A DNA stretch of 47,140 nucleotides from a virus. The position numbers were made by a program, and so were the translations under genes. How positions within the stretch are numbered: position 1 is the first letter of the stretch; the number at the start of each line of letters is the position of its first letter. Shown one piece after another: positions 4,684-21,354 of this stretch. The stretch covers positions 1 to 47,140 of the IMG/VR virus record IMGVR_UViG_3300047475_000020; one strand, written 5' to 3'. The notes beneath the pieces are model-generated. The model was not told the origin of the DNA and ran no database searches. It saw only the letters and a program-made list of their open reading frames with translations.

Positions 4684-5010
4684 ATGAGTGAACATTATCA
4701 AAAATACCGTAATACCATACGAAAAGTTGCACGAAGACATCGTAGATTAAAAGATAAGTGGATTAATGAACAATTAAGAGATAAGTCTTGTAAATATTGT
4801 GGTGAGTCTGAAATAGTGGTATTAAAATTTTATCCAGATGATAGAAAGATTCGTGCAGATTCTAAAAAGAAAAGTTTAAAAAAAGATACTAGAAAATTGT
4901 TATTAGAACATATAGACAACAATGTAATAGTTTGTCATAATTGTTTTTTAAAAAAAGATAATGATTTAATTGATGAAGATGCATTTACCAATTTGTATCA
5001 TACTTCCTAA
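4684..5010 (+). CDS. Degenerate HNH-like zinc protein, the only plus-strand gene
   Basis: The only convincing plus-strand gene. I start it at MSEHYQKYRN (108 aa); an in-frame ATG at 4651 would add 11 residues, and neither start has a clear ribosome binding site. After a very basic N-terminus (RKVARRHRRLKDKW) come two CxxC knuckles, C36/C39 and C84/C87. Spacing and context (KYCGESEIVVLKFYPDD ... VIVCHNC) resemble the HNH nuclease class that reads LEFHHRD...CxNCH. Here the two catalytic histidines are replaced by Tyr50-Pro51 and the C-terminal His by Phe, so nuclease activity looks lost. The gene diverges from gp18, and its 3' end overlaps the 3' end of gp17 by 26 nt. It could be a decayed homing endonuclease or a domesticated DNA-binding protein. 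Confidence 0.75.
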   Translation: MSEHYQKYRNTIRKVARRHRRLKDKWINEQLRDKSCKYCGESEIVVLKFYPDDRKIRADSKKKSLKKDTRKLLLEHIDNNVIVCHNCFLKKDNDLIDEDAFTNLYHTS

Positions 5011-6625
5011 CAACTGGAGTCCATCTTTCACCATATTCATCTATTTGTGGTATAGGGTCATCAATACCATTATCTAAGAATCCAAATGGTGCAAGGTCTT
5101 GTTCTAACTGATTTTGACTTTCTGCAAACAATTTAGCTCTAACATCACTATCAGTAAGTTCTTTAAAATAAGTTTGACCAGATAACCACGCAAATAATAC
5201 ACAACACATCATTAAATCATCGTGGTGTCCTTCTTCTGCCTGATATGACTGTCCGTGAAGAACAAATGAAGACATCTCTGCAACTATATCATAATCTTCT
5301 AATATAATCTTATTAGACTCTACCATTGTTTTTAGATTAGAACAACCAATTTTTTTGACTGCCTTAGTTGTTCTCACACCAAGTTGTGATTTACCACCAC
5401 TAAAACCACCGCCAACTATCTGACCAGCACGACCTCTCATACTTGCCATTATAAGATTATCATACTCTAAGTCAAATTGTAAAGAATTTGCAACTTGGTC
5501 ACCAATGTCATTTACTTCTATTAATACAAATGCTTGATTGTATGCAAGTGCAACATCTTTGATAATGTTTGGAAATAACATAGGCTTTATTTCATTATTT
5601 TTATATTTACCTACTAATCTATATGGTAATTGAGATACATCCATAACAGTAAACGCAGATGCATCTCCTTGAATACCCCTAGCTACATCTGCAACAATAA
5701 CATATGTGTGTCCTTTTTTAGGTTTTTCATATACATCAAGACCAGCATTAGATGTTAAAGGCGTTCTTAAAGGAATATTTTTTATTATAGATGCATTTAT
5801 TAATGTATTTGTAGAACCTAAAAACTCACACTCAAATTCTTTTTGAAATTGTGATTCACTTGTATTTGCAATCGTTTCTTTCTTCCACTTTTCATCTCTG
5901 CCTGGAACTTCAGACCAATGAACTTCTATGGGTACATAAGTATTCTTTTTTGTTTCTGCATCTGTCCATAATTTATAATACATATTCATACCGTTTGGTG
6001 TTGATACAATAATAACTTTTGTAGATTGACCAGATGAAATAGTAGGATAAACTGAACTAAAAAACTCTTCTGCAATATTTGTAGGTACAAACGCAAACTC
6101 ATCTAAAAATATCATATTGTATGAACCACCACGAACTGCACTTGATGATGTTGAGGCTGCAACTATGCGTGAACCATTCTCTAATTCTAAACTACCTTTG
6201 TTCCACGATAGTATTCCTTGTTGCAACCATTTAGGTAAATGTTCATATGCAAGTTGTAATCTGGATAAAATATCTCTTGCAGTTGCAGCTTTGTTTGCAA
6301 GTATTGCCACATTCATATTTTGATTGAACAAAACATAATGTAATATATACGAAACCATTGTGGTTGTTTTACCAGATTGTCTGGGTAGTTTACAGATTGT
6401 AAAACGATTGTTGTGAAATGTACCAACCATTTCTTTTTGAAAAGGATACATATCAAATGGTATCAGACCTTTGTCTAATGATACAATTTTAATATATGTT
6501 TCTATAAAATACTGTGGGTCGTTCATACATTTTTGAAACTCAAGAATATTTTCTTTTGTAAACTCTTGACTTACAAATGCTTTTTTTAAATTAGGATTTC
6601 CTAGATATTGATTTTCTATGCCCAT
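4985..6625 (-). CDS. 17: Large terminase subunit gp17 (packaging ATPase and nuclease)
   Basis: A 546-residue DNA packaging motor that docks on the portal, pumps DNA into the prohead by ATP hydrolysis and cuts the concatemer. The N-terminal ATPase shows Walker A PRQSGKTT (residues 81-88), Walker B MIFLDEF with Asp175/Glu176 (171-177) and the coupling motif STPNG (208-212). The C-terminal RNase H-fold nuclease shows acidic residues in VADVARG (D313), LIEVNDIGD (E370) and HHDDL (D469/D470). The start codon lies inside the last codons of the upstream adhesin gene (10-nt overlap), and the 3' end overlaps the plus-strand HNH-like gene. In T4, gene 17 follows gene 16 directly; here about 4.4 kb of adhesin genes separate them. 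Confidence 0.98.
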   Translation of the reverse strand: MGIENQYLGNPNLKKAFVSQEFTKENILEFQKCMNDPQYFIETYIKIVSLDKGLIPFDMYPFQKEMVGTFHNNRFTICKLPRQSGKTTTMVSYILHYVLFNQNMNVAILANKAATARDILSRLQLAYEHLPKWLQQGILSWNKGSLELENGSRIVAASTSSSAVRGGSYNMIFLDEFAFVPTNIAEEFFSSVYPTISSGQSTKVIIVSTPNGMNMYYKLWTDAETKKNTYVPIEVHWSEVPGRDEKWKKETIANTSESQFQKEFECEFLGSTNTLINASIIKNIPLRTPLTSNAGLDVYEKPKKGHTYVIVADVARGIQGDASAFTVMDVSQLPYRLVGKYKNNEIKPMLFPNIIKDVALAYNQAFVLIEVNDIGDQVANSLQFDLEYDNLIMASMRGRAGQIVGGGFSGGKSQLGVRTTKAVKKIGCSNLKTMVESNKIILEDYDIVAEMSSFVLHGQSYQAEEGHHDDLMMCCVLFAWLSGQTYFKELTDSDVRAKLFAESQNQLEQDLAPFGFLDNGIDDPIPQIDEYGERWTPVVRKYDTNW

Positions 6626-6939
6626 TGAAGTGAAACACCGTGAATAGTATTAATGTGAGATAACCCAGCACCAACTATTTTCCAACGAACTTGAACTTGA
6701 GGACTTGCAGTTCCAGTCAAAGGTGTACTACCAGTGAATATTTTTGCACCAGATGAACCAGTCACATATCCATTATCAGTCAAAGTTATCGCATTAAAAG
6801 TTGTATTATCTCTAGTTGCAGATGCACTTAATTCTGAATTTAATGTACTATTAATTTCTGCAAAAACAACTATTCTTGCTTTAGTCGGAGTAGAACTTGC
6901 AGTAAATGTATCAGATATTAAGGTTGTTGATGTATCTGA
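6616..6939 (-). repeat. Adhesin C-terminal module, copy A
   Basis: This encodes the about 107-residue conserved C-terminal shell, beginning SDTSTTLISDTFTASSTP and ending HGVSLQWA. Diverged copies occur at 8406-8720, 9116-9430, 17078-17392 and 18851-19174. All five share LISDTFTA or LVSDTFTA, SATRDN or SVTRDN, the GSSG turn, SPQVQ or QPQVQ plus RWKIVG, and a terminal LQW. The DNA is also visibly similar; for example, every copy contains gcagtaaatgtatc. Confidence 0.85.
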
Positions 6940-8415
6940 TATACTACCTTGTATTTCTTTAACAATAACAACACCAGGGCCACCATCTCCACCATGAGCA
7001 CCACCAGCAGGAGTGGAAGGATTAATATTTCTTGCACCAGCTCCTCCACCACCACTATTTACAGCACCAGGCAAGCCAGGAAACCAATTTGGTTGTACTA
7101 TTGGGGTTTGGTATGTATCTCCACCACCGAAAGGTACTGAAGTACCTTCTGGAAATTCGCCTACACCAGCACCAGCACCACCACCAGCATAACCTACTGA
7201 TGTAGTACCATCTGCAATATTATAAAGTAAACCATTACCACCTTCTCCACCGATAGTCCCTTCTCCATCTCCACCAACACTACCAGCGCCACCACCACCA
7301 GCAGTTGCTTGTTCACTTCCAGCATCTGGTTGATTTATACCACCATCATTTCCAAAACTTCCAGGCGAGTTAACTGGTAAAATTGATGGAGTCAATGGAA
7401 TTGGATGATTTTCATCTTGTTTACCTTCTCCACCAGGCCCCATATATGGCCCAGGCCCACCACCACCTCCGCCACCACTTCCACCTTCGTGATAAGTTTC
7501 ACCAGATACACCACCCATATATGGATGCGAACCAGAAGTTAGATAACCACCACCAGCACCTCCACCTTCACCTATAAGAGGCCCAAAAGATGAATCTGTA
7601 CCAGTTTGGCCAGGTGAATAATATGTATGTGCCATTGGGTATGAATATTGTGGGTGTTCATACCCACCAAATTCACCAGTTCCTACACGACCATCTGGTC
7701 TTGCAGTTGGTGTATAAGGTGTTGAATCAGACGATGGAGGATTATACGCAGCACCTTCTCCACCAGCACCAACCACTACTGCAACTGAACCACCAGGCGT
7801 TACTGGATAATTTGGATAGTAGATTAAACCACCAGCACCAGCACCACCACCTTTAACAGCATTATAACCACCAGAGCCTCCACCTCCACCACCACCAACA
7901 ACTAAAACATTAACACTCGTAACTCCAGACTCAACAGTATATGTGTGAGGGCCATTTGCTGTAAATGAAAATATATTTTGAGTTGGTGGAGTCTCGCTAC
8001 TGAAACCAGTACCACCAGAGTAAAAATCTGAAGAACTATCATATGTCACATTAGAATTTTCTGCTGTGTCTATTCCACTCTCATCATTAAACTCATCTAC
8101 TACACCATCTTTTAAATTAAATATTGTGAGTCCTTCTGCGACTGCCATCTTAAACCCTAATAAACCAATATTAAAAGTATTTGTATCTGTTTGTGCTACA
8201 TTTGCAACTTGAAATCCACCAGCACCATTTAATAAATCTGACGAACTGCCAGGCAAACTTAATTTTGAAAATGCAATACTTGCTTGTGGTGATACATCTG
8301 CATTGATAATGGTATTGTCTAATATCTCATCTGCACCAATACTACCATCTGCAATTTTATTACTATCTAATGCACTATCACCAATAAGATTTTTATTTAC
8401 TTTTGTTATTCCCAT
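6616..8415 (-). CDS. Glycine-rich adhesin paralogue A (599 aa)
   Basis: A three-part putative tail fibre tip or receptor-binding protein. Residues 1-132 form the shared N-terminal module, with NFG-type repeats and the core FNIGLLGFKMAVAEGLTIFN followed by a VDEF...DTAEN acidic stretch. Residues about 165-490 are an extreme Gly-rich region that starts at VNVLVVGGGGGGG and has runs of glycine, Pro-Tyr loops and GTDSSFG-type turns. Residues about 493-599 are the shared C-terminal module, from TTLISDTFTASSTP to the final LQWA. Gly-rich cores of this type resemble polyglycine-II adhesins such as gp38 of T-even phages; this is an analogy, not homology I can prove. It overlaps the upstream paralogue B and the downstream gp17 by 10 nt each. 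Confidence 0.85.
   Translation of the reverse strand: MGITKVNKNLIGDSALDSNKIADGSIGADEILDNTIINADVSPQASIAFSKLSLPGSSSDLLNGAGGFQVANVAQTDTNTFNIGLLGFKMAVAEGLTIFNLKDGVVDEFNDESGIDTAENSNVTYDSSSDFYSGGTGFSSETPPTQNIFSFTANGPHTYTVESGVTSVNVLVVGGGGGGGSGGYNAVKGGGAGAGGLIYYPNYPVTPGGSVAVVVGAGGEGAAYNPPSSDSTPYTPTARPDGRVGTGEFGGYEHPQYSYPMAHTYYSPGQTGTDSSFGPLIGEGGGAGGGYLTSGSHPYMGGVSGETYHEGGSGGGGGGGPGPYMGPGGEGKQDENHPIPLTPSILPVNSPGSFGNDGGINQPDAGSEQATAGGGGAGSVGGDGEGTIGGEGGNGLLYNIADGTTSVGYAGGGAGAGVGEFPEGTSVPFGGGDTYQTPIVQPNWFPGLPGAVNSGGGGAGARNINPSTPAGGAHGGDGGPGVVIVKEIQGSISDTSTTLISDTFTASSTPTKARIVVFAEINSTLNSELSASATRDNTTFNAITLTDNGYVTGSSGAKIFTGSTPLTGTASPQVQVRWKIVGAGLSHINTIHGVSLQWA
8020..8415 (-). repeat. Adhesin N-terminal module, copy A
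   Basis: This encodes the conserved about 100-133-residue N-terminal shell that ends near the acidic DTAEN and DFY motifs. Diverged copies occur at about 8730-9125, 10616-11014, 18533-18847 and 20246-20539. The common core is LGFK.AV..GLT.FNL.DG.VDEF. It probably attaches the adhesin to a common fibre or baseplate partner, since it is the part kept constant while the centre varies. Confidence 0.8.
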
Positions 8416-9125
8416 TGTAAAGACACTCCGTGTATTTTATTTGTACCAGTCAAAGAAGAACCTACTATTTTCCAACGAACTTGAACTTGAGGACTTGAAG
8501 AACCAGTTAAAGATGTGCTACCAGAAAATATTTTGATACCACTTGAACCAGCTTGATAACCTTCATCAGTTAATGTTATGTTATTAAATGTTGAGTTGTC
8601 TCTAGTAGCACTTATTGTAAAGTCTGAAGTTCCATCTGGTAATTCTGCGAATAAAACTATTCTTGCTGTACTTGGTGTTGTATTTGCAGTAAATGTATCT
8701 GATATTAATGTCATAGAAGTTGTTGAATTACTAAATGTATCTGCACTTGCATCATATGTTGCATTTGAACTTTCAGCAGTATCTACACCAGTGTTATCGT
8801 GAAATTCGTCTACTACACCATCTACTAAATTAAATATTGTGAGTCCATCATTAACTGCCATCTTGAAACCTAACACACCAACATTAAATGCATTTTCATC
8901 AATACCAGCTGTATCAATAGCACCAAATGAACCATCACCACGAACAAATTGTGATGGTGGGCCAGGTAGTGCTAACTTAGTTGCTGAAATATTTGCACTA
9001 GGAGAGATGTTTTCGTTTTTTACTTCTGCACCTATCTTAGAGCTATCAACTGAACCAGTATTTATTTCACCACTTCCAATAGCGTCATTACTTAAATTTT
9101 GATTCTCTAACTTTGTTATGCCCAT
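8406..9125 (-). CDS. Core-less adhesin paralogue B (239 aa)
   Basis: This paralogue contains only the two conserved shells. Residues 1-132 match the N-terminal module (core FNVGVLGFKMAVNDGLTIFN) and residues 136-239 match the C-terminal module (TSMTLISDTFTANTTP to the final LQWE). The 300-400-residue Gly-rich centre found in the other four copies is absent, with just a few residues (FSNST) at the junction. The frame is intact and both ends are coupled to neighbours by 10-nt overlaps, so this looks like a functional minimal form rather than a pseudogene. It may be a structural adaptor or an acceptor for core exchange by recombination. Confidence 0.85.
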   Translation of the reverse strand: MGITKLENQNLSNDAIGSGEINTGSVDSSKIGAEVKNENISPSANISATKLALPGPPSQFVRGDGSFGAIDTAGIDENAFNVGVLGFKMAVNDGLTIFNLVDGVVDEFHDNTGVDTAESSNATYDASADTFSNSTTSMTLISDTFTANTTPSTARIVLFAELPDGTSDFTISATRDNSTFNNITLTDEGYQAGSSGIKIFSGSTSLTGSSSPQVQVRWKIVGSSLTGTNKIHGVSLQWE

Positions 9126-11014
9126 TGTAGTGCAACTCCGTGAATTTTATTTGTACCAGTAAGTGATGACCCAACAACTTTCCACCTCATCTGAACTTGT
9201 GGACTAGCACTTCCAGTTAAAGGTGTACTACCAGTATATATTTTAATACCACTTGAACCACTTACATACCCAGTATCAGTTAATGATACTGAATTGTATG
9301 TTGTATTATCTCTTGTTACTGATATTGCAACATCAGTATTTAAATCATCTGCTATTTCTGCAAACAACACAACTCTTGAAGTAGATGGTGTCGCACTCGC
9401 AGTAAATGTATCTGATACTAAAGTCATACTTGTTGCACTTGAACCAGCATCAAAAACTAAAAGAATACCACCATCACCACCAGCATTTGTTCTACCACTA
9501 GTTGACCCTTCACCTCTAGCTCCATCAGCAAAAAGTGCTTGTCTTGGTGAAGGCAATCCAGTATAATATGGTGCTTCGTCAAATACACTTAATGGAGTAG
9601 GATTTGATGCACTACCAACTGCTGCTTCATATTCTAAAGATGGAGTTGCAACATATGTAGGATTAGAGTATCCAGCACCTCCACCAGCACCACCAGTATA
9701 ACCGCCTGGGTCAGATGTACCACCACCTCCGTGATATCCAGAACCACCACCACCATAGTGATAAGGTGGATAACCCATACCACCACCTTGAAAATGTATT
9801 GCATCTGGGTGTGGAGACTCTTGTGTCCACTCTGCTGGCCCAAATCCAGAACCCTCACCAAAAGGATATGCCCCTAAATGTCCGTTTGCTTCTTGGTCTG
9901 CACCCCCACCAGATGCATTACTACCACCAGAACTAGCAGTAGGTACACTAAACCCACCAGAACCATTAGTTCCAGCAGTAAATCCACCACCACCACCTTG
10001 TGCTGCTGGAGCACCGTTTGAATTTTCACCAGCACCACCAGAACCTACAATTAAAACTGCTTCACTAGCATTAGTTGGAGAAACTGTATCTGAAAAACCT
10101 GGCCCTTCAAATGGATAATTATTAGGTGTGCCTGGTGTATGATAATTTCCAGTTTCATTATATGTACCACCCTCTATGATTGTGACTTCACTATCAAATA
10201 TACCAGTAAAACCACCACTTCCACCAGTAGAACCATAAGCACCACCACCATAACCACCAGTAGCACCTATATCTGAACTTGGATATTGGGGGGTACTGTA
10301 TTGTGGGCCAGCTCCTCCTTCACCTACAACATAATCCCAAGTAGCACCAGCGATTGATGGACTTGCTATTGTACCTTGTACACTACCACCAGAACCTCCA
10401 GAACCAGCGGCATTGTTTCCAGCACCAGCACCAACCATAGTTGCTTCTATTGAAGTTGTTAATGTGGGAAATGTTATACTACCTTGAGTTCCAAATGCAC
10501 CGAATGTAGCTTCTTGAGAAGTGTATGTAATTAATGGTGCGTGTTCTGGGTTTTCAAATGTAACTGCATCTACACCAAGATGCATTGCAACACCAGGCGT
10601 TGGTGATAAATTTTGATAAAAATCTGATGCTGATTCGTAAGATGCGTTTGAGTTTTCGCCAGTATCAATACCACCTTCACTATTAAATTCGTCTACGATA
10701 CCATCAACAAGATTAAAAATAGTGAGTCCTTCATTGACTGCGAGTTTAAAACCTAACACACCAACATTAAATGCATTAGTACCTACTGCACTTAAATCAA
10801 CAGTACCAAAACTTCCATCACCTTTTAAAAAATCTGATGAACTTCCAGGCAAACTAAATTTATTTAATGCGATTGCAGCTGATGGAGAAATATCACTATT
10901 GGTGATTGTTGCATTTGATATATCAGCAGTTGAAATTGAATTAGGTTGAATCTGTCCAGAACTAACTTTACCAGATTCTTCAATCATATTGCTGTTTACT
11001 TTAGTATCAGACAT
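9116..11014 (-). CDS. Glycine-rich adhesin paralogue C (632 aa)
   Basis: The largest of the five shell-and-core paralogues. Residues 1-133 form the N-terminal module (AFNVGVLGFKLAVNEGLTIF). Residues about 185-520 form a Gly-rich core whose entry sequence (SIEATMVGAGAGNNAAGSGG) differs clearly from the VLVVGGGG entry of copies A and D. The core is rich in Gly, Ser, Pro and Tyr with a FxGGGMGYPPYHYGGGG-like stretch. Residues 529-632 are the C-terminal module. It starts 5 nt after the stop of gp16, and its last 10 nt overlap the start of paralogue B. A receptor-binding role is inferred from architecture. Confidence 0.85.
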   Translation of the reverse strand: MSDTKVNSNMIEESGKVSSGQIQPNSISTADISNATITNSDISPSAAIALNKFSLPGSSSDFLKGDGSFGTVDLSAVGTNAFNVGVLGFKLAVNEGLTIFNLVDGIVDEFNSEGGIDTGENSNASYESASDFYQNLSPTPGVAMHLGVDAVTFENPEHAPLITYTSQEATFGAFGTQGSITFPTLTTSIEATMVGAGAGNNAAGSGGSGGSVQGTIASPSIAGATWDYVVGEGGAGPQYSTPQYPSSDIGATGGYGGGAYGSTGGSGGFTGIFDSEVTIIEGGTYNETGNYHTPGTPNNYPFEGPGFSDTVSPTNASEAVLIVGSGGAGENSNGAPAAQGGGGGFTAGTNGSGGFSVPTASSGGSNASGGGADQEANGHLGAYPFGEGSGFGPAEWTQESPHPDAIHFQGGGMGYPPYHYGGGGSGYHGGGGTSDPGGYTGGAGGGAGYSNPTYVATPSLEYEAAVGSASNPTPLSVFDEAPYYTGLPSPRQALFADGARGEGSTSGRTNAGGDGGILLVFDAGSSATSMTLVSDTFTASATPSTSRVVLFAEIADDLNTDVAISVTRDNTTYNSVSLTDTGYVSGSSGIKIYTGSTPLTGSASPQVQMRWKVVGSSLTGTNKIHGVALQWA

Positions 11015-11019
11015 TTTAC

Positions 11020-11409
11020 CTACTTGTTATTTTTTAACATTTTTTGTAGTTCTGTTGTAGAACCAACAAACAATGCATTAGTTACATTCTTCGGCCCTTT
11101 GTCTGGTAATTCTTTCAACTTTTGCATCTTCAAATGTAAATCACCAAGTTTCTCTGTGACCTCTGCAACATTTTTTATGAGTTGTCCAGCAACTTCATAT
11201 GTTCTTGGATGTTCACTTTCTCTTGCAAGGTCTAATATACCCTCTATTGCATCTTGTCCTTTTTCAACTAATGAATAAAAATTTTGTCTTTGATATTCAA
11301 AATCATTACCTTCATTATTTGTTTTGACAACAGTTTTTGGTTTATCTTCAACCTTCATAATTTGTTCACCTATCAATGTTTCATCTAGAATATTATTTAC
11401 TTTTGACAT
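11020..11409 (-). CDS. 16: Small terminase subunit gp16
   Basis: A 129-residue helical protein. The central part contains an ESEHPRTYEVAGQLIKNVAE helix (about residues 65-84), and the C-terminal VTNALFVGSTTELQKML (about 108-124) aligns with the T4 gp16 motif NATVFMGSPTELMDEI. The small terminase recognises viral DNA and stimulates gp17 ATPase and cleavage activity. It is shorter than the 164-aa T4 protein. Its start shares one nucleotide with the stop of the upstream fibre gene. Unusually, three adhesin genes lie between it and gp17. Confidence 0.9.
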   Translation of the reverse strand: MSKVNNILDETLIGEQIMKVEDKPKTVVKTNNEGNDFEYQRQNFYSLVEKGQDAIEGILDLARESEHPRTYEVAGQLIKNVAEVTEKLGDLHLKMQKLKELPDKGPKNVTNALFVGSTTELQKMLKNNK

Positions 11410-12272
11410 TATTCATTTACACCATAAACAATAAATTTTCCCTCATCTATTGTACCACTTGCTGGATAAAACCTTATCCAATTCATTGCAGATGCTAATG
11501 AACTTGTAAAGTAATTTATAATACCATAATGATTATTATTGTTATTATAATGAATCCAATTAACTATATATTTTTTGTAATCATTAGTATCTGACCTACC
11601 AAAATTCACACAATCAATCTCAAAATAATTTCCTATATTTGCTTTAAAATTCCAACCAGCAAATTCATAATAGTTTGTATCAGTAGCAGCACCCAGAGAG
11701 TGAGATGCAGAACCTAACTGTGAATAGTGAGAACCATAAGAACTAGTAAATGATACAGTTGAACCATTATCTGGTGAATCAGACATTCTTAAATCAACTG
11801 TGCCTGAAAGTGTAAGATTATGAACTACGATTTTAAATCTAGTATAACCAGTCATTACTGTATTATTAAATATTACTTCAGAAACACTGCCTGTAACATC
11901 TGTTTCTGCAATTTTAACATTAGTACCAGCAGAACCAAATTCAAATGCACTACCAGCATCATTAACTTTAAGAGCTTGTCCACTTGAACCCAATGTGTTT
12001 ATGTTAAATAAGTTTACTTTATCAATAAAAGTTTCGTCAAAAAGTATTCTATCATCTGCATTTGTACTAGAACCATCTGTACCATTTAATGATAAAAAGT
12101 CGCCCTTGTTTGCACCAGCGCCATCTGTTCCATCTAATATAATTGAATCGTTTTGCAGACCTAATCGTGTATCTGCATCTATTTTTGTTTTTGATATACT
12201 AGAGTTTGCAATATCAACAGCCTGTATTGATGCATCTGCAATAGCTCTACTTGGTAATGTTCTTATTGCCAC
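11409..12272 (-). CDS. Putative tail fibre protein with GTG start (287 aa)
   Basis: The start codon is GTG, with an AGGAG ribosome binding site 6 nt upstream; no better ATG is available. The N-terminus (SRAIADASIQAVDIANSSIS) is the ladder-like repeat common in phage fibres. Residues about 43-85 carry two GTD loops (ILDGTDGAGANKGD and LNGTDGSSTNADDR), followed by FDETF and an LFNINTLGSSGQALKVNDAG segment. That block recurs almost unchanged in the fibre gene at 31746-32681, and both proteins end in a LRFYP or IRFYP...G.....YG motif. It lies between gp15 and gp16, where T4 has no fibre gene. Receptor or fibre function is inferred. Confidence 0.8.
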   Translation of the reverse strand: MAIRTLPSRAIADASIQAVDIANSSISKTKIDADTRLGLQNDSIILDGTDGAGANKGDFLSLNGTDGSSTNADDRILFDETFIDKVNLFNINTLGSSGQALKVNDAGSAFEFGSAGTNVKIAETDVTGSVSEVIFNNTVMTGYTRFKIVVHNLTLSGTVDLRMSDSPDNGSTVSFTSSYGSHYSQLGSASHSLGAATDTNYYEFAGWNFKANIGNYFEIDCVNFGRSDTNDYKKYIVNWIHYNNNNNHYGIINYFTSSLASAMNWIRFYPASGTIDEGKFIVYGVNE

Positions 12273-12288
12273 TTTATTCTCCTACTCT

Positions 12289-12296
12289 TATTTATT
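12289..12296 (-). promoter_or_regulatory. Late-promoter-like box upstream of the GTG-start fibre gene
   Basis: The minus strand reads AATAAATA, one base off TATAAATA. It spans the gp15 stop and the 19-nt gap before the fibre gene, 17 nt upstream of the GTG start. Spacing fits, but the string is simple and AT-rich. Confidence 0.35.
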
Positions 12297-13092: not shown

Positions 13093-14261
13093 TATGTTTC
13101 CTTCCCAGCGTCACCAAATGGATTTGATTCACTAAAGTCTAATATTGTATTATCTAAGTTTTCAAAATCTTCAATCTGAGATTTTTCATCAATAGTATCT
13201 ACATTATATTCTTCATTAATTAGATAATGATTTTCTTCTTTCATTTCAGTTATTGTTGCAGTAAACCCATTGTTTCTACCAGTAATAACTTCATCTTTTG
13301 CAAATGTTCCAGTTATATATTCAAAGTGTAATGTGTTACTATTTATTAACTTAATATAAGCCTGTCCACCGTTTGCACCAGTGATAACTTCGTCTAATTC
13401 AAACGCACCAGTTTCATCTTTAACTGTAATGTAATAAGTATCAGCAGTTTCAAGTAGTATAGAACTCGCACCAAACTGTGTTTCAGAAATTAAATTATCA
13501 CCAGCATCAGAATCACTACCATCTGTTCTATCTAATAATAATAAATCATTATCTTCTAATGAAATTTCTTCTGTGTATGTTCCAGTTTGTTCTAATGTGA
13601 ATTGATATGAAAGTGCATCTAAACTACTATCAGTTTCTATTTGGTCAATCGCACTTACACCAGTATCAAGACCCTCACTACCATATTCAAATAATCTACA
13701 TTTTAATTTATAGACTGGATTGTTATCTAATTGAAAGAAAGGTTCATCGTGGTCAACAAAACTGATTTCAAACATTTTATTAATAATAGGATGAAAAACT
13801 AAATCACCCTCTAAAGGTCTATCTGCATCAGTAGATTCATCTTCATTTACAAGATATGCACTTTCACTTGTGGTTGTTTCATCTTCTAATAATACTGCAC
13901 CAAAAGTTTCAGTAGTACCAGACTCTAAAACAACTTGTTTTGTTATGTCTTGAAATCTTTCTTTACTTACGACAAAAGTAACTTCATCTTTGATATCTAA
14001 ACCAAACTTTGATACTAATTCTTTCTCACCCTCAAGACCACCCTCTGCATTTTCTACATACATTTCTATAAGTTGTGATTCAGAAAAAGTTGAAGATGTA
14101 TCTTCACCAAATAAAGTATCTTCATTTACAAATGTTCTATTTACATAATAGACATCGTGTCCGTGAATCTGGATAGCTTCTTTGATTAGATTTTTATATA
14201 AGTTTCTCTCGGCAGATATAGAAGTTTTATTACTGTCGTGAAAAAATTTGTTGACTGCCAT
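13092..14261 (-). CDS. 14: Neck protein gp14 with inserted repeat loops (389 aa)
   Basis: The N-terminal about 110 residues match T4 gp14, including EAIQIHGHDVYYVNRTFV, DTLFGEDTSSTF and KFGLDIKDEVTF. gp14 joins gp13 in the neck that seals the filled head and receives the tail. At 389 residues it is far longer than T4 gp14 (256). The extra sequence after about residue 210 is acidic and includes a GTD-type loop (LLDRTDGSDSDAGDNLI) and a pair of GExIxG-type hairpins (FELDEVITGANGGQ and FAKDEVITGRNNGF). These same modules occur in other structural proteins of this window. It lies 3 nt after the gp13 stop. Confidence 0.9.
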   Translation of the reverse strand: MAVNKFFHDSNKTSISAERNLYKNLIKEAIQIHGHDVYYVNRTFVNEDTLFGEDTSSTFSESQLIEMYVENAEGGLEGEKELVSKFGLDIKDEVTFVVSKERFQDITKQVVLESGTTETFGAVLLEDETTTSESAYLVNEDESTDADRPLEGDLVFHPIINKMFEISFVDHDEPFFQLDNNPVYKLKCRLFEYGSEGLDTGVSAIDQIETDSSLDALSYQFTLEQTGTYTEEISLEDNDLLLLDRTDGSDSDAGDNLISETQFGASSILLETADTYYITVKDETGAFELDEVITGANGGQAYIKLINSNTLHFEYITGTFAKDEVITGRNNGFTATITEMKEENHYLINEEYNVDTIDEKSQIEDFENLDNTILDFSESNPFGDAGKET

Positions 14262-14264
14262 AAC

Positions 14265-15083
14265 TTATCCTACCATATAATTTATTGGTAACTCAAATCC
14301 TAGTTTCATTTCTTCTTCTAACTTAGTGATTTCATCTAACGCTTGTTGATAGATTGCTTCACCGTTCATAGTAACTCCACCTAACATTTGAACACCATTA
14401 AATTTTGATAGGTTAGAACCCCATTGTTTTTTAATTAATGCAGTTGCATATCTTTTTAAATACATATCATCAAATACATCTGTGTATACTGCTGGGTCTA
14501 ATTTTCTATAACATTCAATTAAAAGAAAATCACCGTTATTGAAATCTTTTTCCATATCTGCGTGAATGTATAATCTGTTTTGATGTTCTTTAAAATCTAT
14601 TGGATATTCACCAGTAAGAATGTGGTCTAGAAAATCTAGATGCCTCATTGTCATTTCATAGTGAATTATTGAAGTTGAACTGAAATCATATAAATCATTT
14701 AGTCTTAATTGATAACGAACATCAAATAAATTTTGAGTTAATTTATCTGTTACTGGGTATACTTTTACAACTGATAATACACTATCTGGAATAGGTAAAT
14801 AATTTTCTTGTTGTAAGAAGTCTGCTGTAATTGAACTATCAACCTTATCAGTTGCTGTAACTGCACTTTCATTACTTCTCATTCTTGTAATTTCAGTGGT
14901 TGTCAGTTGATGTTTTAAATATACTCTTTCAATACCATCATAGTGGTATTTTGAAAAATATTGTAAAGCTTCATCTACTCTATCATCTAATTGGTCATCA
15001 GATATATTGATATCAATGACACCTTTACCTAATGCTCTTAAACAATATTCTTTAAATGTTGACTTTGAAGTAGGTACTGCCAT
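14265..15083 (-). CDS. 13: Neck protein gp13
   Basis: A 272-residue protein (T4 gp13 has 309). It starts the neck cluster and connects the portal to gp14 and the tail. The N-terminal half shows INISDDQLDDRVDEALQYFS and YHYDGIERVYL, matching the T4 pattern of VELTPDQIYDCIQRAL and YHFDGL. The C-terminus shows YLKRYATALIKKQWG and MLGGVTMNGEAIYQQA, equivalent to the T4 LPGGVTIDGQRLIEEA. The gene is preceded by a perfect late promoter box and an AAGGA ribosome binding site, so it probably heads the neck and packaging transcript. Confidence 0.95.
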   Translation of the reverse strand: MAVPTSKSTFKEYCLRALGKGVIDINISDDQLDDRVDEALQYFSKYHYDGIERVYLKHQLTTTEITRMRSNESAVTATDKVDSSITADFLQQENYLPIPDSVLSVVKVYPVTDKLTQNLFDVRYQLRLNDLYDFSSTSIIHYEMTMRHLDFLDHILTGEYPIDFKEHQNRLYIHADMEKDFNNGDFLLIECYRKLDPAVYTDVFDDMYLKRYATALIKKQWGSNLSKFNGVQMLGGVTMNGEAIYQQALDEITKLEEEMKLGFELPINYMVG

Positions 15084-15102
15084 AACTAATCCTTTTTATA
15101 AC

Positions 15103-15110
15103 TATTTATA
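15103..15110 (-). promoter_or_regulatory. T4-type late promoter upstream of gp13
   Basis: The minus strand reads TATAAATA exactly, 20 nt upstream of the gp13 start, in the 38-nt gap after the 2OG oxygenase gene. The expected start of transcription leaves a leader of about 14 nt that still includes the AAGGA ribosome binding site. Confidence 0.7.
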
Positions 15111-15121
15111 ATAAAAAGAGA

Positions 15122-15868
15122 TTATGTTCGTTTTTCAGCACCCTTCATAGTAAGAAAACCTTTCGCATCGTGTCCTTCTCTTTCGTCTTTAAATTTAAGA
15201 CCTTTTTTTATGTGAAAAGATAAATTACCAGAAACACTTACTCTTAGACCTTTTTTACCTTTTAGTTCTGATAAATTAGGTTCTACTTCGTGTACTGCCC
15301 AAGATGGAAACATAATTAATCTGCCTGGAACTGGAGCCCAATATACTTCATTAAGTGTTTCTCTTTTTCTTAGTTTTTTTGGATTGTAAGGTAATTGAAC
15401 TGCGATTGCTTGTGCTCTAGGGTCAGAAAACCATATTTGTCCACACTTTTCTGGAGATTGTAAATAGTAAACAAAACTAAAATGTGAGCCTGGGTGAGTA
15501 TGATTACGATTATGAGCACCAAACTGAGAAACATTTGCCCACATATTATCAATGACTGGTTCTGTGTCTGGATTTAAATCCATTATTTCTTGTATTCTCA
15601 AACCTATTTTAAGTGCTTCTTTTCCTAAATCTTCATATTCCTCTCGCATATGCATATCTACTGCACTATGCCAACCTCTTGAGTTAGAACGAACAATACC
15701 CCTATTGTCGTCATCTCTCCATTTAAAAATATGTTTTAACCATTTTTTATTTCTTTCTTCATAATTTAAAATATCTTTAAAATGAAATAGTGTAGGAAAC
15801 CATATCTCAGATGTTATCTTTCCCCTATTATTTAATGGTACTTCTTGTGCGAGTTTATTAAATGTCAT
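15122..15868 (-). CDS. 2OG-Fe(II) oxygenase family protein (248 aa)
   Basis: I start it at MTFNKLAQEV, where ATGA overlaps the stop of the upstream gene by 4 nt; an in-frame ATG 24 nt further upstream is possible. The protein shows the pattern of putative 2-oxoglutarate/Fe(II) oxygenases common in marine phages. This comprises NRNHTHPGSHFSFVYYL with H123 and H125 (candidate first metal ligands), FSDPRA, and PGRLIMFPSWAVHEVEP with the distal ligand H193, followed by an RVSVSGNL segment whose Arg209 would bind 2-oxoglutarate. Members of this group hydroxylate unknown substrates. It forms a tandem pair with the next upstream gene, inside the late structural operon and just before gp13. Confidence 0.85.
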   Translation of the reverse strand: MTFNKLAQEVPLNNRGKITSEIWFPTLFHFKDILNYEERNKKWLKHIFKWRDDDNRGIVRSNSRGWHSAVDMHMREEYEDLGKEALKIGLRIQEIMDLNPDTEPVIDNMWANVSQFGAHNRNHTHPGSHFSFVYYLQSPEKCGQIWFSDPRAQAIAVQLPYNPKKLRKRETLNEVYWAPVPGRLIMFPSWAVHEVEPNLSELKGKKGLRVSVSGNLSFHIKKGLKFKDEREGHDAKGFLTMKGAEKRT

Positions 15869-16524
15869 ACATAACTTGGGCCGTGTAACCAACCCTCAAT
15901 ACAATTTCTTACACCCTTTGTAACTTTAGTAACACGCCAAGGAACAAAAGATGGGAATATAATTATTTGACCTTTTTGTCTAAATAATTTATTATCCGTA
16001 GTCATATTCATTAATTCAATATGTCCACCATCATAATCTTTGGTGTCAGATAATTGAATAATAAAAGTTAATTTTCTAAATGGTGCATTGTTTCCAATGT
16101 CTAAATGATAATTATAGAAGTTTTTGTTCTTATAACAAACTATTTGTGGATTGTCTGCTTGATAAAAACCAGCAAGTTGCATTTTAAAATTTTTATCATT
16201 AGCTTGTTGTGCAAGTTCTAACACTTTAGTATAGGGCCAACCTTTATCGTTCATAGGTAAAGATTGTTGTGTTGCTTTTCTCACACCTTTTAATGAACTA
16301 TCAACCCATAATTCTTTAACTGTTTCTTTTACTATTGCATCACATTCTTTTTCTGCAAAAAACTGTGATGTTAATATAGAAACTATATTTTTATTACCTA
16401 CCAGTTTGACAATATTTTTATCATCTGGTTCAACAATATTTTTTTCTTGGGGTTCTTCTTTTTTTTCTTCCTCTTTTTTAGGAAGTTCCAGAGTATCAAT
16501 CTCTGAGTCTGTAAATGTATTCAT
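15865..16524 (-). CDS. Prolyl-4-hydroxylase-like 2OG oxygenase, distal His replaced (219 aa)
   Basis: After a charged, low-complexity N-terminus (about residues 1-45, Lys/Glu-rich) comes a P4Hc/PKHD-type fold. It shows YHLDIG with the HxD iron motif (H140, D142), then LTFIIQLSDTKDYDGGHIEL and the FPSFVPWRVTKVTKGVRNC segment ending in GWLHGP. In active relatives the segment usually reads FPS..(x)HRVTPVT.G.R, so the distal iron-binding His is Trp196 here; the codon is a clear TGG. The 2OG-binding Arg206 is kept. The enzyme may be inactive, use another ligand, or act as a partner of the neighbouring oxygenase, to which it is coupled by a 4-nt ATGA overlap. Confidence 0.85.
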   Translation of the reverse strand: MNTFTDSEIDTLELPKKEEEKKEEPQEKNIVEPDDKNIVKLVGNKNIVSILTSQFFAEKECDAIVKETVKELWVDSSLKGVRKATQQSLPMNDKGWPYTKVLELAQQANDKNFKMQLAGFYQADNPQIVCYKNKNFYNYHLDIGNNAPFRKLTFIIQLSDTKDYDGGHIELMNMTTDNKLFRQKGQIIIFPSFVPWRVTKVTKGVRNCIEGWLHGPSYV

Positions 16525-16551
16525 AATTTTTCACCTTTTAATAATTATACA

Positions 16552-17064
16552 CTATTTTTTTTCAATGTCAATAGGGTTTTTAATTTGGTCAACATCTGCA
16601 CTAGTTGGTTTTATTAACCATTGTTTTGTTCTGTGTTTTTGTCCATTAAAAACTTTTCCCTCTTTTGCATTTTCTAACCATTTATGTAATCGTGTAGATT
16701 TTACTGGTTTATATTCTTCTACCCAACCACCATCTAATTTTCTAGATAGTCTACCACCAGTTTTAGGTTTAGGCATTTTATTCCAGTGAAAATGTTGTTT
16801 ATTAGTATTATTACTCATATAATAATTTTTTTTATGATATGTTCCTTCTTTGATTGCAATCCAAGTTTTAATTTGTTCTTTTTGTCTTTCTTTTTTACGA
16901 ATCATTCGTTCCCAACGAAACAATCTTTGTGTTTCATCTTCTACTGTATAGAAACGACCTTGTTCATCAACCATTGTACCATTATATCTTTTATCGTGAT
17001 AACTTATGATTGGAGGAAATTCTTCTTTTGATGGGGTTTTGTATTTCTGTTTAAATATCTTCAT
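16552..17064 (-). CDS. Basic protein of unknown function (170 aa)
   Basis: Not recognised. The product is strongly basic and aromatic. It begins MKIFKQKYKTPSKEEFPP, with a helical, charged middle (RWERMIRKKERQKEQIKTWI, about residues 50-69) and a C-terminal part with KMPKPKTGGRLSRKLDGGW and KHRTKQWLIKPTSAD. No zinc motif, signal peptide or membrane segment is visible. The charge suggests nucleic acid binding or a stabilising role in the virion. It sits between glycine-rich adhesin D and the two oxygenases, separated by short gaps (13 and 27 nt), and is probably co-transcribed with them. Confidence 0.75.
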   Translation of the reverse strand: MKIFKQKYKTPSKEEFPPIISYHDKRYNGTMVDEQGRFYTVEDETQRLFRWERMIRKKERQKEQIKTWIAIKEGTYHKKNYYMSNNTNKQHFHWNKMPKPKTGGRLSRKLDGGWVEEYKPVKSTRLHKWLENAKEGKVFNGQKHRTKQWLIKPTSADVDQIKNPIDIEKK

Positions 17065-17077
17065 AATAATATATATT

Positions 17078-17392
17078 CTATGCCCACTGGAGGGCTACAC
17101 CGTGAATTTTATTTGTATTAACTTGGTTACTTCCAACAATTTTCCATCTAAGTTGTACTTGAGGACTTGCAGTACCAGTTAAAGGTGTACTACCAGTAAA
17201 TATTTTTATACCAGAACTTCCTGCTTGAAACCCTTCGTCTGTTAGTGTGACTGCATTAAATGTTGTATTATCTCTTGTTACTGATGCGTTGATATCGGTA
17301 TTTAAATCATCTCCTATTTCTGCAAACAATACAAGTCTTGCTTTACTTGGTGTTGAACTTGCAGTAAATGTATCAGATATTAAAGTCATACT
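17078..17392 (-). repeat. Adhesin C-terminal module, copy D
   Basis: This is one of the five diverged copies of the conserved C-terminal shell, running from MTLISDTFTASSTPSKAR to HGVALQWA. It lies in the second adhesin cluster, about 10 kb from copies A, B and C, so the family spans two separate loci. Confidence 0.8.
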
Positions 17393-18847
17393 AGAGTTAG
17401 CAATATCACCTTTACTTTCTGCAACAACAATAATACCAGAACCAGCAATACCACTTACACCAGTGCTTGCCGGAGCAGGGCCTTCCATATGACCACCACC
17501 AGAACCACCACCAGTATTTACAACTGCATCAGTTCCAAAGAAACCCTCTGTGCCTGTAACGAAAGGACTATATGGACTTGATGTTGGAGCCCAAGGTGCA
17601 GATGCTTGATTAGTTGTTACTTGTCCTACTCCACCACCATAAGGAACACTTTCACTAGGAGGTGCAGTATCAGCACCACCTCCACCACCGCCGCCAGCAT
17701 AACCTACTGGTGTTGAACCATCTGCAATATTATAATTTAAACCTATACCACCAGAACCACCTCTTTGTCCTTGAGGTGATGTTACATCTCCACCTTCTGC
17801 TCCTGCTCCTCCACCGCCACCAGAGTTTGCAAGTTGACTCTGTGGGCCAGTATGAAAACCTAATCCACCAGCATTTCCAAAAGAACCTCGTGCATTTATT
17901 GGTGTGCCTGGTAAAGGGTCGTTTGACAAGCCAGGAACTGGATGATTTGTTGTTTGAGTTGATGCGTGTTCAGCAGCTGGAACTACTGGGGCATTATTTA
18001 TAGAACCAGTTCCACCAGCACTACCACCTTGTATTTGTGTGTGTTCTAAACTTCCAACATAACCTTCGTGATAATATCCACCACCAGCACCACCACCCTC
18101 AGCAGTTAGAACTAACGCTGGAGCTGAACCAAAAACTGAATCTGTACCTTTTTCGCCTGGCGAATAAAGTTGTTGAACGGGAGTCTCTGGCATTGGGTCG
18201 TAAGCCCAAGTAAATCTTTGTGGTTGAAATGGTTCATAACCAGATGATGCAACTCCAAGAGGGCCACCTCCTCCAGCACTTCTACCACCAGCACCTACTG
18301 ATACTGGAATACTTGTTCCACCAGTTACTGGATAATCTTCATAAAATATTAAACCACCAGCACCTCCACCACCACCAGCAGTATTATTATATCCACCAGC
18401 ACCACCAGAACCACCTCCTCCAATAACTAAAATATCAACTGCTGATGTTGTAGGTTCTACTGAGTAAGTTCCAGAACCAGTATCAGTAATAGATGTTCTT
18501 TGTATTGATGGAGAGGGTAAAGGTTGATTTGGATTTGTATTTGCATAAAAATCTGAAGAAGAATTATATACTGCGTTTGAATTTTCTGAAGTATCTATAC
18601 CACCTTCACTATTAAACTCATCAACAATACCATCTACTAAATTAAATATTGTCAAACCTTCATTGACTGCGTGTTTAAATCCTAATACACCAATATTGAA
18701 AGGTGTATTTGTGTCTGCTAAATCGGTATCAATTTCAGTTTTTGTAGATGTGATACTTGCACTAGGTGATATGTCTGCATCAGTGATAGTTCCATCTGTG
18801 ATGTCAGTTGATTTTATCTGAGTTAAACCAGTTAAGGGATTTGGCAT
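17078..18847 (-). CDS. Glycine-rich adhesin paralogue D (589 aa)
   Basis: Shell-and-core architecture as in the 6.6-11 kb copies. Residues 1-105 form the N-terminal module (FNIGVLGFKHAVNEGLTIFN). Residues about 135-480 form the Gly-rich core entered by SAVDILVIGGGGSGGAGGYN, with a GTDSVFGSAPALVL turn, NYNIADGSTPVGYAGGGGGG and a SGIIVV exit. Residues about 486-589 are the C-terminal module ending LQWA. The core is closest in plan to copy A (shared NAV or NTA...GGAGGLI, GSFGN.GG and YNIADG.T..GYAGGG elements), which suggests duplication or exchange between the two adhesin clusters. It follows paralogue E after 3 nt. Confidence 0.85.
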   Translation of the reverse strand: MPNPLTGLTQIKSTDITDGTITDADISPSASITSTKTEIDTDLADTNTPFNIGVLGFKHAVNEGLTIFNLVDGIVDEFNSEGGIDTSENSNAVYNSSSDFYANTNPNQPLPSPSIQRTSITDTGSGTYSVEPTTSAVDILVIGGGGSGGAGGYNNTAGGGGGAGGLIFYEDYPVTGGTSIPVSVGAGGRSAGGGGPLGVASSGYEPFQPQRFTWAYDPMPETPVQQLYSPGEKGTDSVFGSAPALVLTAEGGGAGGGYYHEGYVGSLEHTQIQGGSAGGTGSINNAPVVPAAEHASTQTTNHPVPGLSNDPLPGTPINARGSFGNAGGLGFHTGPQSQLANSGGGGGAGAEGGDVTSPQGQRGGSGGIGLNYNIADGSTPVGYAGGGGGGGADTAPPSESVPYGGGVGQVTTNQASAPWAPTSSPYSPFVTGTEGFFGTDAVVNTGGGSGGGHMEGPAPASTGVSGIAGSGIIVVAESKGDIANSSMTLISDTFTASSTPSKARLVLFAEIGDDLNTDINASVTRDNTTFNAVTLTDEGFQAGSSGIKIFTGSTPLTGTASPQVQLRWKIVGSNQVNTNKIHGVALQWA

Positions 18848-18850
18848 AAT

Positions 18851-20539
18851 TTATTTCCACTGCAACGCAACACCGTGTATTTTATTTTCAGCAGTTTGAT
18901 TACTTCCAACAATTTTCCAACGGACTTGTACTTGAGGTTGGCCAGGTGCAGCTCCAGTTAATGTAGTAGAACCAGAATATACTTTTGTACCACTACTACC
19001 ACTTACATAACCAGTATCTGTTAATGTGATTGCATCGTAGTTAGTGTTATCTCTGGTTGCAGAAACTGACACATCTGTATTTAAATCATCACTTATTTCT
19101 GCAAATAAAACTATTCTTGCTTTAGTTGGTGTTGAGTTTGCAGTAAATGTATCTGATACTAATGTGCTACTTGTGGATGTAGTTAATGCTTCCATTTCCA
19201 ATACGACTATTTGTCCACTACCACCATCACCGCCTGGAATATTATAATAAGAGGGGCCTGAGCCACCTGGCCCACCACCGTGTGAACCACCTCCACTACC
19301 AGTGTTTACAACACCAGCATATCCAGTATCAGCTGCTAAAGTATGTGTGCTCTGTGGATTGTGGTTTCCATCACCACCACCACCTTCACCACCTTCTGTT
19401 TCACCGCCTGGAGCATATCTACCACCAGAACCACCGCCACCAACTTTACCATCTGAATGACCATAACCAGCAGGAAACCAATTTAATTGTGGATTAGGAG
19501 GCCCTACTGCAATACCATCACCACCAGCACCAGCGTTTGCACCACTAGCAGCATTACCTTGTTCACCAGCACCACCGCCTCCTCCACCAGCATAACCTGG
19601 CCCAGAAGCATAACAGATACCACCGTCAAATCCTTGTTGTGTTAAATCTCCAGCAGGATGTCTATTTTCTCCAGTTTCACCTTCACCTACTGTACCTTCT
19701 TCGTAACCACCACCTCCACCAGAACCACCAGGCAATCCGTCTGTTACTTCTTGGCCAGGAAAATCTTGGTCAGACCCAGATTCGTTAATAGTATATGCAT
19801 GGCCACCAGAACCACCACCCTCTGCCGTAATTGTTGGGCCAAAAGTTGAATCATCGCCTGGTCGTGAGTTTCTTCCTGCTGGATTATCTGGGGTTGCTAT
19901 TGAAAGGGGAAAGATAGTTGGAGCATCGCCAGGAAAATATGGTTGTATTGCTGTTGGATAAGATGGGTGCCAAGGATGAAATCTACCTTCACCACCAGCA
20001 CCAACATTTACTGCAACACTAGCACCACCAGTTACTGGAACATCAGCATCTAAAACAACACCACCAGCACCGCCGCCGGCACCTCCACCAACACCCATTC
20101 CACCGCCACCACCAGCGCCACCACCACCGATTGCAAAAACTTTAACGACAGTTGTAGTTGGTTCATTTGAAAATGTACCAGGCCCAGTTGATGTTAATCT
20201 TGTTAGAGTTGCTTGAGGTGTAGGAATAGGAGTAGGGCCGTCTAAATTTGAATAAAAATCGGAACTAGCATCATATTTTGAAGTTGCATTTTCTGATGTG
20301 TCTATACCACTTTCATTGTTGAATTCATCAACAATACCATCAATTAAATTGAAAACAGTAAGTCCTTCACTTACTGCCATCTTAAAACCTAAGACACCAA
20401 TATTAAATGCGTTTGTACTAATTTGAGCTGCATCTAATCCAGCAACTTTAGATTCTGCAATACCAGCAGTTGGACTAATGTCTGCATTTTTTACTTCAGC
20501 GTCTTTTATGTTTGATGATTTGATAGTTGTTAATGGCAT
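18851..20539 (-). CDS. Glycine-rich adhesin paralogue E (562 aa)
   Basis: This is the fifth shell-and-core copy. Residues 1-98 are the N-terminal module (AFNIGVLGFKMAVSEGLTVF). The Gly-rich core, about residues 125-450, opens with TTVVKVFAIGGGGAGGGGGM and contains GPTITAEGGGSGGHA, long Gly runs and a SGQIVVLEM exit. The C-terminal module, about residues 456-562, ends LQWK and has a small insertion (GAAPGQPQVQ) relative to other copies. The core content differs from copy D next to it, while the shells stay alike. The start follows the fibre gene at 20542-21342 after 2 nt. A receptor-binding function is inferred. Confidence 0.85.
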   Translation of the reverse strand: MPLTTIKSSNIKDAEVKNADISPTAGIAESKVAGLDAAQISTNAFNIGVLGFKMAVSEGLTVFNLIDGIVDEFNNESGIDTSENATSKYDASSDFYSNLDGPTPIPTPQATLTRLTSTGPGTFSNEPTTTVVKVFAIGGGGAGGGGGMGVGGGAGGGAGGVVLDADVPVTGGASVAVNVGAGGEGRFHPWHPSYPTAIQPYFPGDAPTIFPLSIATPDNPAGRNSRPGDDSTFGPTITAEGGGSGGHAYTINESGSDQDFPGQEVTDGLPGGSGGGGGYEEGTVGEGETGENRHPAGDLTQQGFDGGICYASGPGYAGGGGGGAGEQGNAASGANAGAGGDGIAVGPPNPQLNWFPAGYGHSDGKVGGGGSGGRYAPGGETEGGEGGGGDGNHNPQSTHTLAADTGYAGVVNTGSGGGSHGGGPGGSGPSYYNIPGGDGGSGQIVVLEMEALTTSTSSTLVSDTFTANSTPTKARIVLFAEISDDLNTDVSVSATRDNTNYDAITLTDTGYVSGSSGTKVYSGSTTLTGAAPGQPQVQVRWKIVGSNQTAENKIHGVALQWK

Positions 20540-20541
20540 AT

Positions 20542-21342: not shown

Positions 21343-21354
21343 TTACAAACTCCA

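Follow-up and report, generated by a model that had tools for sequence, protein, structure and literature searches.

How a single phage comes to carry several adhesin-like genes with conserved ends and dissimilar centres is the question raised by a 47,140-base IMG/VR virus record (IMGVR_UViG_3300047475_000020; "the window" denotes this whole stretch). Five open reading frames (ORFs) on its minus strand, designated copies 1 to 5, share an N-terminal module (LGFK...) and a C-terminal module (SDTFTA...RWKIVG...LQW), here termed the N and C shells. A first-pass annotation of the sequence had described these genes, and all five ORFs and both motifs were recovered at the coordinates listed below. 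Four copies carry a glycine-rich core between the shells and one carries none. In related contigs, cores visibly moved between gene positions independently of the shells. It is probable that the proteins are paralogous fibres or adhesins of a T4-like marine myovirus in which a conserved "socket" formed by the shells holds an exchangeable "plug", exchange occurring by homologous recombination in the shells.

Shells and cores in the window and its relatives

6616-8415, minus strand: copy 1, 599 residues, adjoining the terminase large subunit gene (gp17); Pfam Gly_rich_2, 43.2 bits; N shell about 8008-8199, core about 6940-8007, C shell about 6619-6939.
8406-9125, minus strand: copy 2, an empty socket of 239 residues; N and C shells directly joined at about 8721-8726.
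9116-11014, minus strand: copy 3, 632 residues, adjoining the terminase small subunit gene (gp16); second sequence class of core; N shell about 10601-10792, core about 9440-10600, C shell about 9119-9439.
17078-18847, minus strand: copy 4, 589 residues; Gly_rich_2, 34.2 bits; N shell about 18530-18724, core about 17399-18529, C shell about 17081-17398.
18851-20539, minus strand: copy 5, 562 residues; PHROG 2295, E 1.4e-29; N shell about 20237-20428, core about 19181-20236, C shell about 18854-19180.

Window copies agreed at 56-78% of positions in the N shell (about 64 residues) and at 66-75% in the C shell (about 107 residues); the shell DNA, in direct orientation, was about 68-80% identical. 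Core lengths of 356 (copy 1), 387 (copy 3), 377 (copy 4) and 352 residues (copy 5) agreed with the 300-400 glycine-rich residues noted in the first pass. The cores of copies 1, 4, and 5 were mutually related, with alignment scores of 380-616 versus shuffled means of 113-132 (standard deviation 20-23). Against these cores, that of copy 3 scored only 2-3 standard deviations above shuffled composition, which indicated two sequence classes of core. The curated cut-off of Gly_rich_2 (PF21722; 24.3 bits, whole protein) was exceeded by copies 1 and 4; copies 3 and 5 showed no Pfam match, Gly_rich_2 included. An NCBIfam scan of all five copies returned nothing, and no family named Dit was listed in a PHROG scan of the same proteins.

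Relatives were surveyed in 80 sequences, comprising the window and 79 loci (L numbers below) from IMG/VR searches with the shells, with duplicate contigs removed; the second search contributed its best 80 of 109. At the detection thresholds used (E 1e-3, 40 residues), 186 shell ORFs were found, a count to which contigs of one population contribute overlapping stretches, and none was an internal fragment with a single shell: both shells were present in 136, and the 50 one-shell ORFs all reached a contig end. Core length in the 136 two-shell ORFs was all-or-none, being 0 in 15 genes and 268-432 residues in 121. The empty genes were window copy 2 and its equivalents in six contigs (L009-L014) from the window's own population, two each in L082 and L083, and one each in L095, L072, L073, and L074. 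When other loci of the window's population were left out, 101 cored genes remained, and these grouped into 37 clusters with an identity limit of 60% and 44 with one of 70%. A single contig carried up to six shell ORFs. In L031, L032, L034, L039, and L045, extra shell-bearing genes were located at another site, beside genes like those at 31746-32681 and/or 32897-33694 in the window.

Searches of copies 2 and 5 and of the copy 1 core against 50,697 phage records, in which low-complexity filtering may hide glycine-rich cores, yielded no relatives, and a scan of genome contigs yielded two distant loci only.

Core exchange between gene positions

Closely similar cores were found within divergent shells. 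The core of an L022 gene beside gp17 was 92% identical, at the protein level, to that of an L030 gene at another position, while the shells of these genes were 71% and 69% identical; the corresponding DNA identities were 52-82% on the N side, 85-98% in the core, and 58-82% in the C shell. L034 and L076 shared cores of 97% identity within shells of 61% and 74%, and the core of window copy 4 recurred at 85% in a terminase-adjacent gene of L015 (shells 75% and 78%). Different cores also occurred at the same position. DNA identity between L022 and L025 was 84-97% as far as the N-shell end and fell to 44-70% in the core, and the second gene of L015 differed from its counterparts in L016-L020 in the same manner (shells 90-95%, cores 49-50%).

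Among the 81 same-position pairs in which both shells were at least 80% identical, which are not independent of each other, cores were below 60% identity in 19 and at least 60% in 62. In 50 of the 5050 pairs among the 101 cored genes, cores were at least 75% identical with both shells below 80%. Clustering of 62 position-labelled genes at 70% core identity gave 19 clusters, and 8 of the 15 clusters with at least two members spanned several positions. Divergence of shells and cores, compared separately, was thus not parallel, and the recombinational core exchange that the first-pass annotation had proposed from the window was seen in related contigs, both as cross-position cores and as same-position core differences.

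On trees of 53 genes from five positions, the fewest position changes were 9 for the N-terminal part, 16 for the C shell, and 23 for the core, with means of 29.5-29.7 (standard deviation 1.7-1.8) for shuffled labels. The N end tracks gene position, whereas the dependence of the core on position is weak. The C shell falls between the two, a result to be expected if the right-hand crossover frequently takes place inside it. Two breakpoints were fitted to 26 pairs, and only the nine with a gain of at least 44 log units were used. In eight of these, the right break lay at most 13 residues from the start of the C shell, and in the ninth it lay 99 residues before it; left breaks were scattered between the first residue of the N shell and a point 59 residues past its end.

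Cored and empty alleles alternated within near-identical flanks. The second gene after gp16 was cored in L095 (590 residues) and empty in L083 (228 residues), with 93-100% DNA identity across the 1.4 kb preceding it; past this gene, L095 and L082, which is also empty there, were 92-100% identical. The shells themselves were mostly 69-88% identical between L095 and L083, which indicated allele replacement by recombination rather than clean deletion. The empty copy 2 of the window likewise corresponded to a cored gene of 603 residues in L017, with long flanking matches of 94-96% identity. For a possible import of copy 2 from other empty alleles, the signs were mixed: its junction residues resembled those of such alleles, while its C shell was closest to the shells of cored genes.

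Predicted fold of core and socket

Monomer models were built with AlphaFold2 from 40 sequences for copy 1 and 13 for copy 3. Residues 143-490 of the copy 1 model matched the Pam3 fibre (7yfw: Z 15.6, 200 residues, 2.7 Å, 26% identity; 7ypx: Z 16.1, 230 residues, 5.3 Å) and the Bxb1 tail tip (9d93_Qb: Z 15.3, 198 residues, 3.6 Å), so that the copy 1 core is predicted to resemble the TNF-like and glycine-rich tip of Pam3 and Bxb1. A glycine-rich protein of HF2 matched the same model at 29% identity (TM-score 0.68 by target length). Matches of the copy 3 model were weaker (ALK glycine-rich domain, Z 12.1; Pam3, Z 10.5, 161 residues, 2.8 Å; phi812, Z 9.4, 123 residues). In the 40-protein alignment, Pfam matches at E up to 0.01 to Gly_rich_2 (31 of 40) and ALK_LTK_GRD (4 of 40) gave the predicted core fold backing from sequence; phmmer searches of the PDB returned no match for the copy 1 core or for the pelagiphage inserts of HTVC011P and MedDCM described below. 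The gp38 adhesins of T-even phages, which sit on the tip of gp37 in the long tail fibre, are reportedly glycine-rich, with a polyglycine lattice and hypervariable tip segments, and set host range; the first-pass annotation had drawn an analogy with them. The best solved matches pointed instead to Pam3 gp24, the Bxb1 tail tip, and, for copy 3, ALK-type glycine-rich domains; S16 gp38 was absent among the structural matches listed for the copy 1 model, which does not exclude it.

Residues 102-599 of the copy 1 model matched phi812 baseplate chain 9eui_Q over 134 aligned residues (Z 13.7, 2.8 Å). The remaining matches down to rank 50 began at residues 89-104, ended at 598-599, and covered 124-142 aligned residues; they included the HFTV1 tail, Eph receptor domains, and carbohydrate-binding domains. 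Since 134 aligned residues exceed the 107-residue C shell, the remainder comes from outside that shell, most simply from the N shell. The two modules, which had been annotated as separate ends and are indeed common to all five copies, are on this moderate evidence probably halves of one beta-sandwich with the core inserted. The existence of genes consisting of bare shells fits a self-contained socket.

Shells related to those of the window's group were also found in cultured phages, although the link is distant. A tblastn search with the L053 C shell returned 14 phage records. Nine were Rhizobium phages (E 6e-12 to 1e-10), four were pelagiphages, and the last was an uncultured phage; HTVC011P, HTVC028P, HTVC201P, and MedDCM-OCT-S35-C6 were among them, at 30-35% identity (E 3e-7 to 1e-4). 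The copy 1 C shell gave six weak Rhizobium-phage matches only. The N-shell profile matched HTVC011P (6e-7) and HTVC028P (1e-5), but not MedDCM. Compared with each other, HTVC011P, HTVC028P, and MedDCM were 62-71% identical in the N parts and 79-85% in the C parts, with inserts at 14-20%, each identity being calculated across the longer part. HTVC028P carries an ALK_LTK_GRD domain as its insert (E 3.6e-15), while Laminin_G_3 was found in MedDCM (E 1.5e-8) and in HTVC121P (E 7.7e-12), a more distant phage with a C shell 38.5% identical to that of HTVC011P; searches identified no domain in the HTVC011P and HTVC201P inserts. In Rhizobium phage RHph_Y52, a C shell lies downstream of a Laminin_G_3 domain, and the profile did not detect an N shell. 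HTVC011P, HTVC028P, HTVC201P, HTVC121P, and MedDCM thus resemble the window in having a related shell pair around an inserted domain. They differ in that one such protein occurred per stretch fetched, in shells distant from those of the window (C shells 30-35% identical to that of L053), and in their Laminin_G_3 or glycine-rich inserts. Occurrence of different inserts in related shells of cultured pelagiphages indicated that the pattern is not confined to metagenome assemblies.

In the proposed arrangement, a slot-specific N-terminal anchor would lead into a beta-sandwich socket that is split in sequence into the two shells, with a whole TNF-like and glycine-rich binding domain, the plug, inserted in one socket loop. 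Because both plug ends would meet at one loop and the DNA flanks are conserved, homologous recombination in the shells could move plugs between gene positions and co-infecting phages, or leave a socket empty, with anchoring undisturbed. More tentatively, one split beta-sandwich socket could be a general platform, shared by marine myophages, pelagiphages, and in part Rhizobium phages, that takes varied folds (glycine-rich TNF-like, Laminin-G, others) or none. Myophages would then hold several sockets at two or three sites, recombination inside the socket would reassort a common plug pool, and each virion would display a combination.

Genome setting, alternative explanations and known systems

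The window carries virion module genes of a T4-like myovirus on its minus strand; they encode the portal, both terminase subunits, the tail tube, the tail sheath and its stabilizer, the baseplate wedge, and proteins for head closure and for the head-tail adaptor. The terminase large subunit is 75% identical to that of Methylophilales phage Melnitz and 67% to that of Pelagibacter phage HTVC008M. Copies 1-3 sit between the two terminase genes, and copies 4 and 5 upstream of the neck genes. Three genes served as position markers:

4985-6625, minus strand: terminase large subunit (gp17), adjoining copy 1.
11020-11409, minus strand: terminase small subunit (gp16), adjoining copy 3.
16552-17064, minus strand: 170-residue ORF, adjoining copy 4 and located beside adhesin genes in many relatives; no PHROG match (E 0.001) and no Pfam match (E 0.01).

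At the equivalents of the two adhesin sites, the annotations in Melnitz are F5/8 type C domain protein for one gene and tail fiber for others; core and shell profiles matched no ORF in the Melnitz stretch. In HTVC008M, genes for an oxygenase and a halogenase occupy the terminase interval. The window has a pair of neighbouring 2OG-Fe(II) oxygenase genes (15122-16524) between the adhesin block and its neck genes, and HTVC008M has four annotated before its own. Two other fibre-like genes of the window (11409-12272 and 31746-32681) have in common a 180-base stretch of 81% DNA identity (11925-12104 and 32247-32426), and a gene like 31746-32681 occupies the gp15-gp16 slot in L033 and L047; a further module seems to move between fibre genes. 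The ORF at 22547-29872 (2441 residues) was considered as VrlC, and this identification was not obtained. A 178-residue protein (35500-36036) matched the Pgp3 C-terminal domain (PF05475, E 2.2e-6). In L042 (5785 bases), the terminase large subunit was split over two ORFs, which may reflect a frameshift, an insertion, or an assembly error. The T4-type late promoter word TATAAATA occurred 7 times against 6.8 expected, and nothing was therefore built on it. A diversity-generating retroelement would have a reverse transcriptase and a template repeat near its target; no reverse transcriptase was found among the window ORFs scanned, which were a part of the ORFs of a genome fragment.

If no exchange occurred, the observed core diversity would have to come from faster divergence of cores than of shells, under diversifying selection on the receptor-binding part. 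Median ratios of nonsynonymous to synonymous substitution rates (dN/dS) in close same-position pairs, which share genes and are not independent, were indeed higher in the core (0.39, 33 pairs) than on the N side (0.28, 33 pairs) or in the C shell (0.17, 29 pairs), and core divergence followed the shells in a number of same-position pairs. However, faster core evolution cannot produce cores 92-97% identical in shells 61-74% identical (L022/L030, L034/L076). Moreover, dN/dS was below 1 in all parts, with no counted value above 0.76 and cores at 0.25-0.76 (33 pairs), and this explanation is extremely improbable. That the mosaics are metagenome assembly chimeras, joined across repeated shells or cores, is very unlikely. 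Many loci are short IMG/VR contigs, and some mosaics (L024, L025, L076) contain long stretches of about 100% identity, where assemblers can switch. Misassembly, however, leaves unexplained the exchanged cores that differ by 8-15% or more (L022/L030, window copy 4/L015). In addition, the window arrangement recurred in parts at about 99.9% in ten further loci with nine IMG dataset numbers; L082 and L083, from different datasets, were empty at the same gene, and the pelagiphage inserts described above come from cultured genomes. Pilin and invertible tail-fibre systems exemplify expression-switched cassettes, in which one copy would be expressed and the others kept as silent donors. Such a system would account for tandem paralogues with conserved ends and similar shell DNA, and it is very unlikely here: every one of the window copies has an intact open frame, and their shells repeat in direct orientation. 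Inverted matches within 6000-21400 comprised only eight imperfect pairs (20-31 nucleotides, 71-85% complementary; shorter sites were not sought). Together with dN/dS below 1 and the absence of internal one-shell fragments, the open frames and direct-repeat shells argue for several expressed proteins. Of the two roles offered in the first-pass annotation, several displayed adhesins or a donor pool, the evidence leans to display of all copies.

Decoration of the head, neck or tail by proteins that are not primary receptor-binding proteins is a rather unlikely alternative. It would suit the location of the genes among neck and terminase genes (gp13-gp17), with no recognised long tail fibre gene adjoining. 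The Melnitz annotations at both sites and the predicted resemblance of the core to a fibre tip speak against it. So does the host recognition cluster of pelagimyophages, a zone of fibre variation described as lying between VrlC and the neck gene gp14 (PMC7029224). Even as decorations, proteins with binding plugs would be compatible with the socket-and-plug anatomy. Homology suggests that the window plugs likely bind host receptors, and that the copies may be displayed together on the virion.

Several results weigh against exchange of plugs between split sockets as proposed here. The nearest relatives come from metagenomes, often as short contigs. Cores keep some position signal, since their 23 changes compare with about 29.6 expected and only 3 of 1000 shuffles gave 23 or fewer. 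For 17 of the 26 fitted pairs the gain stayed below 40 log units and the breakpoints were weak or uninformative; these included the near-identical L016/L017, two pairs of L051/L054, L056/L057, and two pairs of L077/L078. The C-shell profile of the group misses the C ends of HTVC011P, HTVC028P, and MedDCM, so that the C-shell link to these phages comes from tblastn with one distant member (33-35%, E 3e-7 to 1e-6). The copy 1 model is of moderate confidence, with a mean predicted local distance difference test score (pLDDT) of 63.7 (N-shell blocks 38-67, C-shell blocks 54-83), and that of copy 3 is poor (mean 46.8). Sequence searches with the bare socket found no credible known family, the Pfam hit to CBM_4_9 (E 0.034) being below cut-off, and nothing credible in the PDB. 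As the structural aligner lists end points only and the N shell is poorly modelled, the single split sandwich, like the core fold, is inferred from models.

Among known systems, the gp24 protein of cyanophage Pam3 (7ypx, 7yfw; PMC9608196) is the best solved match of the copy 1 core, which is predicted to share its fold. In gp24, a TNF-like and glycine-rich domain with a conserved glycine stem and a variable tip is described. That domain forms the distal end of a homotrimeric fibre that has an assembly chaperone, whereas the window core appears to be inserted in another domain and occurs in several paralogues. Glycine-rich adhesins also set host range in Hafunavirus (PMC8651126). Variation in gp38 and the Hafunavirus proteins is described as lying in hypervariable segments of one adhesin, while in the window's group a whole glycine-rich domain moves between paralogous carriers. 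Evolved Dit proteins of siphophages contain carbohydrate-binding modules in galectin-domain loops that are present or absent between phages (PMC7291167), and are thus likewise variably present, loop-inserted binding modules. Dit, however, is the distal tail protein, a single hub, whereas the window carrier is a multi-copy fibre-like protein with plugs that change gene position.

Pelagimyophages have a hypervariable fibre region upstream of the neck genes (PMC7029224), and lectin-like genes occur in variable metaviromic islands (PMC3909814). In their accessible parts, neither source describes common-shell paralogues, core exchange, or the gp16-gp17 site; the main text of the former does not contain the words glycine, duplication or paralog, and that of the latter lacks glycine, recombination and paralog. 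For such hypervariable host-recognition islands of marine phages, the proposed arrangement offers a concrete mechanism in which the unit of exchange would be one inserted domain, the homology for exchange would come from the split carrier domain, and an empty carrier would be tolerated. It predicts which parts of uncharacterised marine phage proteins set host range and where exchange junctions fall, and it makes multi-adhesin display a testable question. Searches of the open-access literature found no carrier that exists in several copies, exchanges inserts of whole-domain size and has empty members, which is weak evidence of absence. Modular adhesins, glycine-rich tips, variable host-recognition islands, and loop-inserted binding modules are already known, while their multi-copy, cross-position, sometimes-empty version appears to be new.

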